From the NCBI RefSeq assembly GCF_017603825.1, contig NZ_CP072014.1, positions 1,798,001-1,862,000 of the forward strand: a stretch of 64,000 nucleotides of DNA. The letters run 5' to 3'. Shown in pieces: positions 59,493-62,826 of this stretch. The notes under the pieces were generated by a model. It was not told the origin of the DNA and made no database searches. It was given only the letters and a program-made list of their open reading frames with translations. How positions within the stretch are numbered: the stretch's first letter is position 1; the number at the start of each line of letters is the position of its first letter. The stretch is from Arthrobacter crystallopoietes (GTDB taxonomy: Bacteria; Actinomycetota; Actinomycetes; Actinomycetales; Micrococcaceae). Position numbers and translations under genes: made by a program.

Positions 59493-62057
59493 TCATCCGG
59501 TCGGCGCCGGTGCCGGTTCATCCGCAGGAGCCGGCGCGGGCGCTGGTTCCTGTGCGGGGGCCGGAGCGGGTTGCGGCGTGGTGGTGGTTAGCGGTGCAGG
59601 GGGAGAGGTGGCCGTATCGGGAGCCGGTTCGCCGGTAGGCTCCTGTGCCGGGGCCGGTTGTTGCTCGCTGCCGGTGTCCGCCGGAGACGTTGCATCGGAT
59701 GAGGGTTTCGGATCGGAGGTGTCTGGCTCCGGCGCCACGGTGGTGGATACGGGCGCCTGTTGAGGCTCCTCGTCCGTGTCCTGCTCCTGGGTGGGCTGGG
59801 TATCTGAGTCCACGTCGGTGTCTGCATCGGATTCCGCTTCGGTGCTGCTGCTCCCGCCGCTGGTTGCATCGTCCTTTTCGATGATGCCGAGAATGCGCGC
59901 CTTGTAGTCGTTCAGGCGGCTTTGGATCTCGTCCAGCGGAACGTCTTCGAGCGACCTGCCATAGGCAGCGATCTCCTCCCACAGCGCCGTAAGCTCATCC
60001 ATGCCTGCCTCGCTGAGCGGACCGTCGAGGGTAAGGACAAGCTGGCTGGCTAGAGCATAGGTGAGGCAGTCGACGCAGTTGTAGTTGGCCGCGGCCGAGA
60101 GATTTTGCGGCACAACAACGTCGGCCTGGCCGAGGATCAGGACAACTTGGAATCCGACGGCGACGGCGGTGCAGTCCCGGCAGGAAGCAAAGGCATAGGC
60201 CTCGTTGGTTGCGTCCACCGGCCCGTCTTCGGCCCAGACCAGGGCGAATGCAACGTCGTAGACAACCGATCCGTCCTCGGTGTTGACGGCAAGGGCCTGG
60301 TTTCCGTCGTCCTCGGGAGCCAGCGGTCTGTCGAAGGGAAACACCCAGGATGGAGGCGCGTCCGCGGTGGCAGGTTCAACAGCGGTGGCGCCGGAATCGC
60401 CGTCGTTCGCTTGATCTTCACTGGTTTCCGCACTGCCGGTCTCTGAGCTGCCGGCCTGGTTGTCGCGGGGAACGAGGACCATCGCCAGTTGCGGATTCTC
60501 CGCGGTGGGGAGGTCCGTACCGGACGGCCAGGCCGTGACAGTTTGGCCGGCCCGACCCTCGGCAAGTCCGACGGAAGAAGCCGAGGTGAGGGAAGCTGTG
60601 GCATCGAACAGGGTTCCGCGTTCGTAGGGCTGCACCGGGCGGTAGGCTCCGTCGTCGGGCCACCAGGCCCAGGCCAGACCGGCGAGAACGGCAGCGGCGG
60701 CGGCAATGGCTGTCACACGCCGAAGCGGCCGGCCACGGGTTTTCGCCCAGACGGCGGTGAGGAGCTGCCGGGCCATGCGCAGCAGGATGTAGGCGATGCC
60801 GAGGATGGGAAGCGCGACGGCGATGATGGCCAGTACCCGTACGGCCATGCCGGCAACGTCGCCGTCGGAGCTGGCCTCGGCCAGCAGCCGCTGCTGTTCC
60901 AGGACGCTGGCCCAGGCCGTGCCCAGGACCCGGGGAAGTGAGACCACCATCATGAGCAGGCAGAACAGGAGCAGCGGAACCGTGACCAGGACCCACACGG
61001 TCACGACGGCCCTGGCCCATGGCTTGAGCAGCTTGGGCTCGGGGTCTGACCAGCGCCAGGGCAGCAGCCCGAGCAGTGTGGGTTTGATCCGTTGGAACAG
61101 GTCGGGCACTCCGGTCGCGTCGGCGAGGATGTGGTAACCGTCGAAGCGAATCAGGGGCAGCAGTTGGCGCACCATCTGCAGGATCTGGGTTACTACCACC
61201 AGCAGCAGTGCGTCGAAGCCGGTGAACCACCAGACACTCATGGTGGATACGACGACCATGGCGTTGAAGTACAGGCCGCCCAGATCCGTGCGGATCCGCC
61301 CGCCGCGTCCCAGCCGGTAGGAATCCGTGACATCGGTGTAGAAAGCAGGCCAGATCAGGTACAGGCCCACGCCCATGGCTCCCGGGGTCGCGCCGCCGCG
61401 ACGGGCCGCGGCCGCGTGGCCGAACTCGTGGAAGCCGGCCGAGAGGATGGTGATGGCGAAAACCAGGAGGAGCAGCCCGGGATTGGCGAAGGCTTCATGC
61501 GTGGCCGAGCCCAGACCCTTGACCAGCAGCACCCACCAGCACGCCGCCAGGAACGCTGCGACCACGGGCAACGCGATCAGCGGATGGAACAGTGCGGCGA
61601 ATGGGGCGGTCAGCCTCCGGGTACGTTCCGGGTCGGTGACCGTGTAGCGGAAGCGCATGCCCAGCAGCGGGCTGGCCTTCTTGACTTCGGGCTGTGAACC
61701 GTCAGCCAACTGCAAAAGGCCCAGGGGGAGCAGTTGCTTGGCGATGAGGGTCCGGACGTTGTCGGCAGTGATGAGCCTGCCCGTCCGGGTGCCGGCAAAA
61801 TCTGCAATCTGCTCGAGGTTGCGGTTGCCGTCCACGCCCTCCAGGACCGCGTACAGCAGGGGAGTGAGCTGGATGGTCTGGCCGTCTGCGCGCCGGACCA
61901 GCGCGGGCGGCTCCCGGTAGCCGGAGCCCTGTGCCTGGCCGAGGAGTTGCACTCCATCGGCCAGCACCGGGACGTCGATCGACACCGGTGCGGGAGGCCC
62001 GTCAGCAGCGGGCGGGCTGCCCATTGCCGCCGGCGGCCCGCCCGGTCTCATGCTCAT
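59493..62057 (-). CDS. RRE/PqqD-like domain fused to M50 metalloprotease with disordered tail
   Basis: The 854-residue membrane protein has several parts. Residues 35-120 resemble a PqqD/RRE winged helix (PPALVRRADGQTIQLTPLLY, LEGVDGNRNLEQIADFAG), which binds peptide leaders in RiPP pathways. Residues 155-460 are a polytopic M50 (site-2-protease-like) unit with zinc motif HEFGH (210-214) and the distal RFDGYHILAD (305-313). After further membrane helices comes an extracytoplasmic region with two CxxC motifs (SCRDCTA and NCVDCLT), then an Asp/Glu/Thr/Pro-rich tail ending in Ala-Pro repeats. It follows the acidic repeat protein by 7 bp, its likely partner or substrate. Confidence 0.87.
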   Translation of the reverse strand: MSMRPGGPPAAMGSPPAADGPPAPVSIDVPVLADGVQLLGQAQGSGYREPPALVRRADGQTIQLTPLLYAVLEGVDGNRNLEQIADFAGTRTGRLITADNVRTLIAKQLLPLGLLQLADGSQPEVKKASPLLGMRFRYTVTDPERTRRLTAPFAALFHPLIALPVVAAFLAACWWVLLVKGLGSATHEAFANPGLLLLVFAITILSAGFHEFGHAAAARRGGATPGAMGVGLYLIWPAFYTDVTDSYRLGRGGRIRTDLGGLYFNAMVVVSTMSVWWFTGFDALLLVVVTQILQMVRQLLPLIRFDGYHILADATGVPDLFQRIKPTLLGLLPWRWSDPEPKLLKPWARAVVTVWVLVTVPLLLFCLLMMVVSLPRVLGTAWASVLEQQRLLAEASSDGDVAGMAVRVLAIIAVALPILGIAYILLRMARQLLTAVWAKTRGRPLRRVTAIAAAAAVLAGLAWAWWPDDGAYRPVQPYERGTLFDATASLTSASSVGLAEGRAGQTVTAWPSGTDLPTAENPQLAMVLVPRDNQAGSSETGSAETSEDQANDGDSGATAVEPATADAPPSWVFPFDRPLAPEDDGNQALAVNTEDGSVVYDVAFALVWAEDGPVDATNEAYAFASCRDCTAVAVGFQVVLILGQADVVVPQNLSAAANYNCVDCLTYALASQLVLTLDGPLSEAGMDELTALWEEIAAYGRSLEDVPLDEIQSRLNDYKARILGIIEKDDATSGGSSSTEAESDADTDVDSDTQPTQEQDTDEEPQQAPVSTTVAPEPDTSDPKPSSDATSPADTGSEQQPAPAQEPTGEPAPDTATSPPAPLTTTTPQPAPAPAQEPAPAPAPADEPAPAPTG

Positions 62058-62064
62058 TCAGGAA

Positions 62065-62826
62065 CTACTGTTCGAGGTCGGACTGCTGGTCTGCGCTGGC
62101 CTCGGCGGCGCCGTCGATCTGCTGGTTGATGATGGCGTCCTGCTGTGCCACAGCGGTCGCCTCGCTGTCCACCGAGCCGATGTTGGCCGCGACTGCGGCG
62201 TCGATGGGCGCGGCAACGTTGGCATTGGCGGCCACAGCACCGTTGATCGGAGCGGCAATGTCAGCGTCCGCGGCCAGATCCAGGTTGACGTTCAGCAGAT
62301 TCCCGTCAAGTGTGGATCCAAGGTCCTCCGTGACGGATCCAGTGTCTGGAAGCGTGGCGTCCGGCAGCGTCCCGTCGGGCAGCAAGGCCGGGTCCGCCGT
62401 CTCCTGGCTAGCGCCGTCCAGCGGCACGCTCGAATCAGCGGTGGGGGAGTCCAAGCTGCCGGCCGTGCCCGAGGTGGTTTCGCCGTCGTCGATCGTTTCA
62501 TTGCTTTGGTCGATGGTGCTGTCCTGTGCGGACTCGGCTGTCGCATCGGCGGCGATGCCCTGGTCGATAATGACGCCCTGGTCGGACAGCGCCTGCGCCG
62601 TGGAGCCATCCGAGAGGATGTTGGCGGAGGCTGCGGCATCAATGGGGGCCGCGACGTTGGCGTTCGCCGCGACGGCGAGATCGATCGGCGCGGCTGCATC
62701 GATGGCCAAGTCGAGATCCGCATTCAGATCGAGAATGGAAGCGACCTCCTTGTCCGGCAGCGCGGTGCCGGACTGGGATTCGAGTTCTTCCGGCGACAGC
62801 GGCGTGGGTCCCTGTTCGTTGCTCAT
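62065..62826 (-). CDS. Acidic Ala/Asp-rich two-repeat protein, partner of the M50 protease
   Basis: The 253-residue protein has almost no basic or aromatic residues (one Lys, no Trp, Phe or Tyr) and no Cys. It consists of an N-terminal segment (SPEELESQSGTALPDKEVAS), repeat 1 (about 31-91) and repeat 2 (about 177-237) separated by an acidic Ser/Thr-rich linker. Each repeat contains ANANVAAPIDAA and a following SD/QxxII-D/NQ motif. It has no signal peptide or membrane segment. The ATG at 62826 has GGAG upstream. Its coupling to the RRE-M50 gene suggests it is recognised, processed or exported by it. I do not know its function. Confidence 0.8.
   Translation of the reverse strand: MSNEQGPTPLSPEELESQSGTALPDKEVASILDLNADLDLAIDAAAPIDLAVAANANVAAPIDAAASANILSDGSTAQALSDQGVIIDQGIAADATAESAQDSTIDQSNETIDDGETTSGTAGSLDSPTADSSVPLDGASQETADPALLPDGTLPDATLPDTGSVTEDLGSTLDGNLLNVNLDLAADADIAAPINGAVAANANVAAPIDAAVAANIGSVDSEATAVAQQDAIINQQIDGAAEASADQQSDLEQ

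Follow-up and report, generated by a model that had tools for sequence, protein, structure and literature searches.

RiPP recognition elements (RREs) are known from pathways to ribosomally synthesized and post-translationally modified peptides (RiPPs), in which small peptides are chemically modified. The locus described here raises the question of what such a domain does when it is fused to a membrane protease and encoded beside an acidic repeat protein. It lies on the minus strand of a window of 64,000 nucleotides from Arthrobacter crystallopoietes (contig NZ_CP072014.1, positions 1,798,001 to 1,862,000), and consists of the gene for a 253-residue repeat protein followed, after a gap of 7 bp, by the gene for an 854-residue protein (the RRE-M50 protein) in which a predicted RRE precedes a site-2 protease core. 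Both genes lie where a first-pass annotation of the DNA had placed them (Table 1). We consider it fairly probable that they form a minimal RiPP-like maturation unit, in which a leader is bound and cut and the repeat region leaves the cell, as a surface or secreted protein, and joins an outer CxxC domain of the protease. From sequence comparison, the long pair appears to be one layout of a phylum-wide family, and to represent RRE-site-2 protease leader processing of a new sort rather than a member of daptides or curli.

The first-pass annotation had expected similar pairs in other actinobacteria and had named their absence as an outcome that would tell against it; the pair was found to co-occur far beyond its own genome. 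At 27 of 27 loci of the long layout the two genes are neighbours on the same strand, with the start of the protease profile lying -16 to 93 bp from the stop of the small gene (the protease runs off the contig in L052 and L056). The repeat protein was detected in 7 of 59 genomes (its own included) and in 3 of 10 of its own genus. A profile of nine small proteins matched 29 of 394 genomes of the class, representing 18 of 138 genera, and a protease search of another collection gave two named loci, in Arthrobacter sp. P2b and Pseudarthrobacter sp. NamE2, both with a small gene upstream. Among the 394 genomes, the short-precursor profile is matched in 32, the CxxC domain in 38 and the protease in 38 at more than 500 bits, a line set at a gap seen in the score list; p-values for their co-occurrence are descriptive, as some of the counted genomes also went into the profiles. 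The CxxC and strong-protease sets are identical, which is trivial for the layout where both are one protein, and have 30 genomes in common with the 32 precursor genomes. Eight genomes have protease and CxxC domain with no listed precursor: six of these carry divergent precursors upstream (L141-L147), and contig ends truncate the other two (L148, L149). A precursor genome with no strong protease match (G139) is also cut by a contig end. The precursor match in G405 (E = 7.9e-4), where neither CxxC nor M50 is matched, was rejected as chance.

No gene family beside the unit is common to more than 8 of 62 loci (clustering at E 1e-20, with flanks of ~5 kb that are shorter in cut contigs and clusters unnamed by family; L149-L153 and L169-L189 were left out). 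At these loci no tailoring enzyme family is conserved beside the unit, one elsewhere in the genome being possible, and the protease is the sole conserved partner found beside the precursors. A phage origin was rejected, as none of 50,697 phage records matched. Three of 72,556 plasmid records did, two from Streptomyces and one, weakly, from Muribaculaceae (22% of the query). A literature search, made mostly without reading abstracts or texts, found nothing on the pair or the leader strings, though either may have been published.

In the other layouts, one to four short leader-bearing peptides stand beside the same RRE-M50 protein. Layout I, with the long two-repeat protein and a protease with a fused CxxC domain, comprises the window and 26 further loci. 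In layout II, short peptides with the consensus LTDEELxQExGEELPDREAMSLINANxAAPVNAAVAANVLSDNSTAYANAxQxAxIxQ precede a protease that lacks the CxxC domain; 8 of 9 loci have three peptides in tandem (L077 has a single one, and the cut locus L070 contains peptides only), and 7 of 9 carry a stand-alone CxxC protein with a signal-peptide-like start, judged by eye. Layout III consists of six Streptomyces-like loci (L142-L147) and a plasmid of Streptomyces sp. NBC_00557, with one or two peptides bearing ESAELLPGREAL-type leaders, the protease and a separate CxxC protein. All three genes are annotated as 'hypothetical protein' in the plasmid record, as are the precursors in both annotated plasmid records, the other being that of S. 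changanensis. In the three loci of layout IV (L138, L139, L141) the protease is longer at its end and lacks a clear last helix. This end is a MinD/ParA-type ATPase by family search in L138; L139 reads alike, and L141 is placed here by length and tail only. Layout V comprises more distant proteases (22 matches, 378 to 465 bits). Peptides with LPxR leaders lie directly upstream in all 13 loci read (L156-L168); their cores differ strongly, and the CxxC domain is not matched. The S. changanensis plasmid has two LPxR-leader peptides and a protease. The precursor cores of L156-L168, L183-L185 and L189 are Gly/His-rich with two cysteines, Asn/Ser-rich, or hydrophobic, unlike that in the window. Intermediates between short and long forms are seen at L170:2992-3555 and L172:4202-4639, where a single leader is followed by two repeat units in one open reading frame (ORF).

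The repeat protein is encoded by a real gene: its ratio of non-synonymous to synonymous substitution rates (dN/dS) is ~0.13 against the homologue in L015 (0.076/0.573). It is ~0.12 against L014, and the RRE-M50 protein gives ~0.19 (0.068/0.362) and ~0.29 in the same comparisons; purifying selection thus acts on both genes. As first described, two repeats have a core in common and basic and aromatic residues are nearly absent: ANANVAAPIDAA occurs exactly twice (residues 54-65 and 200-211), and there are 46 D or E residues, one K, and no R, H, F, W, Y or C. Much of the repeat region is unchanged between genera in the alignment of 27 proteins. A profile of the protein had no match among PDB chain sequences. 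The N-terminal segment that had been likened to a leader contains a conserved motif, with L23, P24, K26, E27 and V28 invariant in 27 of 27 aligned long precursors, and the core LPx[KR]E is present in all 27 long and all 24 short aligned precursors. The leader motif makes precursors easy to find; its agreement across layouts III-V is not independent, because those layouts were partly found by it. In a relative of the repeat protein (L065:6597-8132), the linker matches beta-flower repeats (PF21785, E = 1.8e-9, 37.8 bits, cut-off 38). An ORF at L153:7622-7834 (G067) has the leader EALPDREAMSLV and a different short end, with no protease profile match within the 15-kb stretch.

The RRE-M50 protein runs from a Pro/Ala-rich start through a winged helix, the protease core, a last hydrophobic helix and a partly disordered stretch to a beta domain and a disordered tail; its structure model, built with 25 sequences, has a mean predicted local distance difference test score (pLDDT) of 71. 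Of the fusion of an RRE to an intramembrane protease, which had been noted from the letters alone, the protease held up through its HEFGH and FDGYH motifs, and the RRE is a predicted one, by weak profile matches and the modelled fold. A beta3-alpha3 winged helix is modelled at residues 37-109 (block pLDDT 66-96). Among 16 family members, Pfam PqqD matches five (best E 0.004), TIGR03859 PqqD three, and the RiPP-binding model ApyI six, including the window's own at E 0.011, none of them above cut-off. A search of the A. crystallopoietes genome with PF05402 (PqqD) found nothing. HExxH and the downstream DG motif fall in hydrophobic helices of the model, as befits a site-2 (M50) protease, and all 34 aligned proteases retain the metal-site residues H, E, H and D; D306 is presumably the third metal ligand, as in site-2 proteases. 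Among NCBIfam models, that of the daptide intramembrane protease scores highest (96.6 bits, cut-off 300), followed by the epipeptide protease (36.4 bits, cut-off 225), and Pfam M50 is sub-threshold at 13.9 bits; Pfam, NCBIfam and PADLOC gave no family above cut-off for either protein of the pair. Foldseek matched the Methanocaldococcus jannaschii site-2 protease (3b4r) with probability 0.92 but E 0.17. In PDB sequence searches with profiles of the protease, the RRE and the CxxC domain, the rows returned were judged chance or low complexity. Of the 38 proteins of layouts I-III that were scored, 37 have a last helix with a hydropathy peak of 1.48 or more (0.86 in L151; three were not scored); the peak is a weak 0.71 to 1.02 in the three layout IV proteins ending in an ATPase.

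The first-pass annotation had described a disordered tail. Disorder is indeed predicted for residues 734-854, but residues 585-730, counted into that tail, appear as a separate ordered domain (block pLDDT 66-88); elsewhere pLDDT falls below 50 at residues 1-25, 128-134, 493-509, 520-522 and 524-568, as it does in the tail itself. The domain is modelled as three beta repeats (strands 586-592/598-609, 617-624/630-642 and 651-658/665-677), of which two carry the CxxC motifs. Other layouts encode it as a stand-alone protein. The signal-like starts of these separate proteins and the last helix of the proteases fit an RRE inside and a CxxC domain outside the membrane.

This outer domain resembles the presumed substrate. 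In profile comparison its third repeat aligns with both precursor sets in one register, and the motif [N/D]-x3-A-x-N-x2-[C/S]-x2-[C/S]-x5-A-x-Q is common to RRE-M50 residues 652-672 and repeat protein residues 209-229, with CxxC in the protease domain where the substrate repeat reads SxxS. Repeat 1 of the repeat protein does not match the exact pattern. Precursor set one scores 24.0 against the CxxC domain (column permutations: mean 10.8, maximum 17.7) and set two 22.7 (mean 12.2, maximum 21.7). Because none of 300 permutations reaches the score in either set, the likeness exceeds what composition alone would give; convergence on a beta repeat is also possible. Ranked by E-value, Foldseek places the functional amyloid FapC first for the protease model (E 8.5e-3, probability 0.35, rmsd 18), a weak match that serves as a hint only. 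The ordered CxxC domain, its motif in common with the substrate and the short-peptide relatives go beyond the first-pass annotation, and the finding is more general than was then held.

A prediction set beforehand was that protease loci outside the class should carry leader-bearing ORFs upstream. Among 336 genomes of the phylum, 24 have a protease match at E 1e-60 or better, 19 of them outside the class; 20 of the 22 listed out-of-class matches, from 18 genomes, were fetched. The criterion stated in advance was 1.2 kb and LP.[RK], and the one applied was 1.5 kb and a regular expression with added acidic residues. An ORF with this leader occurs within 1.5 kb upstream at 16 of 20 protease loci and in 45 of 162 control windows (p = 8.5e-6), a control rate that marks the expression alone as permissive; hits visibly due to chance occur once each in L177, L180 and L188, beside better ones. 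Precursors were detected by profile at three further out-of-class loci: L174 and L176, both on the opposite strand, and L181.

Among known systems, daptides are closest in the protease. In the daptide report (PMC10036551), clusters were marked by a site-2 protease with an RRE at its N-terminal side, and the leader is removed by the RRE-dependent intramembrane peptidase MpaP. The predicted fusion and the several short leader-bearing precursors are alike here, and the model for MpaP/DapP (NF041824) matches residues 51-325 of the RRE-M50 protein. However, the daptide leader reads ELExMEAP and its precursors end in an invariant Thr, whereas the window precursor has LPDKEV and ends in EQ. Membership was rejected on the score, 96.6 of 300 bits. 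No daptide aminotransferase, oxidative decarboxylase or methyltransferase is found by Pfam among the nine window neighbours. One genome, G017, holds both kinds of protease, a daptide-like one that scores 76.6 bits with the family profile and a relative of the window protein that scores 628.5. Beside the daptide-like RRE-M50 protein in this genome (L169) are two short ORFs with the leaders ELETMEAP and ELEQLEAP, ending in Thr. The epipeptide protease EpeP/YydH/LiaK (NF058609) is also an M50 protease beside a peptide gene, and is thought to cut the peptide as well as to export it (PMC10885120). Its match differs in falling far below cut-off and covering core residues 195-315 only, with the RRE outside.

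Epipeptides involve a radical-SAM epimerase; no search aimed at such an enzyme was made here. The closest working analogy is the Fap system, with a repeat subunit, a second protein on the same repeat, CxxC and a protease. According to PMC6173800, Fap has a major repeat subunit and a second protein of that repeat which is suggested to act as nucleator; FapC carries CxxC, and secretion requires the protease FapD. FapD is given there as a C39 peptidase, and both curli and Fap use Sec signals and an outer-membrane pore. No curlin model is among the Pfam matches of 27 members, and no sequence kinship with Fap was found. Weak Gasdermin matches in 6 of the 27 (best E 0.0056) were taken as chance.

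In the maturation unit proposed here, the RRE, in the cytosol, would bind the repeat protein encoded next to it by its N-terminal leader (EEL...TALPDKEV), and the site-2 protease core would remove that leader at the membrane. Both steps are likely by homology to the daptide and epipeptide proteases. The acidic, beta-patterned repeat region would then be released outward and fold or assemble with the protease's own CxxC domain, which would be built on a related repeat and carried by the membrane-bound enzyme; these last steps we infer. The leader-guided processing of the first-pass annotation gains from the co-occurrence, the conserved leader motif and the daptide-like architecture, with cleavage, its site and export putative. 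Across the phylum, the same RRE module seemingly helps to mature both short peptides and whole repeat proteins. If so, release from the membrane would here be directed by a leader, and the motif common to substrate and protease would be a direct, testable hint at surface assembly. A bolder version, which we think somewhat unlikely, would have an actinobacterial functional-amyloid-like surface polymer whose fibre subunit is freed by the protease and seeded or anchored by the CxxC domain, as one branch of a phylum-wide unnamed LPx[KR]-leader class matured without tailoring enzymes.

Several observations weigh against the proposed unit. No exporter for the repeat protein is known. No hydrophobic or transmembrane segment and no signal was found in that protein (no signal-peptide predictor was run), so for a cut within the membrane the junction of leader and core would have to reach the cavity of the protease. 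Its structure model is poor (pLDDT 52) and gave no Foldseek match. The window's RRE segment has no Pfam match, and the RRE and M50 matches of the window's protein are both under curated cut-offs. For the motif in common with the CxxC domain, hhalign probabilities are low as homology (21.8 and 3.9), and 14 Streptomyces-like and ATPase-layout precursors score 17.2 in the same register, a score reached by 2 of 200 permutations. Outside the class, the leaders of L181 read L[EQ]DRE, without proline, and L178 has the protease with only a weak small-protein match that lacks a leader.

The same parts could belong to a true RiPP pathway, with the tailoring enzymes encoded elsewhere, the protease as the last step only and a chemically modified product. 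An RRE, a leader and an RRE-linked protease follow RiPP logic as set out in the daptide report (PMC10036551), and the rows of three short precursors in layout II fit it as well. However, the lack of any widely conserved neighbour family, in a survey of flanks and not of whole genomes for tailoring enzymes, and the ordinary genes around the pair in the window make this unlikely. Short leader-bearing precursors in arrays could also yield antimicrobial or membrane-active peptides in the manner of epipeptides, EpeX being termed antimicrobial in PMC10885120. The acidic core in the window, which has a single basic residue and none that is aromatic, the dN/dS of the repeat protein and a repeat that is largely invariant between genera all argue otherwise, and we regard this as a most improbable account.

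Site-2 proteases frequently act in signalling, and the pair might instead carry out regulated intramembrane proteolysis, with the repeat protein or the CxxC domain as sensor or inhibitor and the product as signal. The outer domain, resembling the substrate, could then be a substrate mimic. This seems very unlikely for a substrate without a membrane segment and a unit with no regulator conserved as neighbour; an ECF-type (extracytoplasmic function) sigma factor three genes from the pair was seen in this genome only.

Table 1. Features of the gene pair, with positions in the window, and of the layout IV proteases, with positions in the named loci.
Feature	Residues	Position	Strand	Basis or remark
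Repeat protein, 253 aa, presumed substrate		62065..62826	-	Stop included; homologues and conservation
Leader-like N-terminus; predicted helix 12-17 (low confidence)	1-35	62722..62826	-	Conservation; model pLDDT 52
Leader motif LPDKEV	23-28	62743..62760	-	L, P, K, E, V invariant 27/27
Repeat 1	36-107	62506..62721	-	Q83, Q89, Q101, Q107 invariant in 27 aligned proteins
Variable linker	108-175	62302..62505	-	Length and sequence differ across alignment
Repeat 2; motif D209..Q229 also in CxxC domain	176-253	62068..62301	-	Alignment and profile comparison
RRE-M50 protein, 854 aa		59493..62057	-	Stop included; profile matches and model
RRE (PqqD-like winged helix), predicted	35-125	61683..61955	-	Model and weak profile matches
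Membrane protease core and last helix	143-466	60660..61631	-	NCBIfam, model, Foldseek, hydropathy
HEFGH zinc motif	210-214	61416..61430	-	H, E, G, H invariant 34/34
FDGYH, presumed third metal ligand D306	305-309	61131..61145	-	D306 invariant 34/34
Last hydrophobic helix	444-466	60660..60728	-	Model and hydropathy
Outer beta-repeat domain with CxxC	585-730	59868..60305	-	Model, conservation and profile comparison
CxxC motif 1	626-629	60171..60182	-	Both C invariant 33/33
CxxC motif 2	661-664	60066..60077	-	Both C invariant 33/33
Disordered Pro/Ala/Thr-rich tail	734-854	59496..59858	-	Model and composition
Layout IV proteases		L138:5612-7900, L139:7837-10209, L141:8486-10891		MinD/ParA-type ATPase end in place of outer tail; family search in L138 only

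The nine window neighbours scanned by Pfam include ABC-transporter, GntR, oxidoreductase, sigma-factor and hydrolase genes. The scan for promoter and terminator sites gave 0 and 3, respectively, where chance would give means of 0.3 and 2.2. Outside the window, ~7-8 kb past the repeat gene (L013:13009-13322), the same genome holds a decayed second RRE-M50 copy, whose short fragments lie in different frames and match positions 182-250 and 252-293 of the profile.

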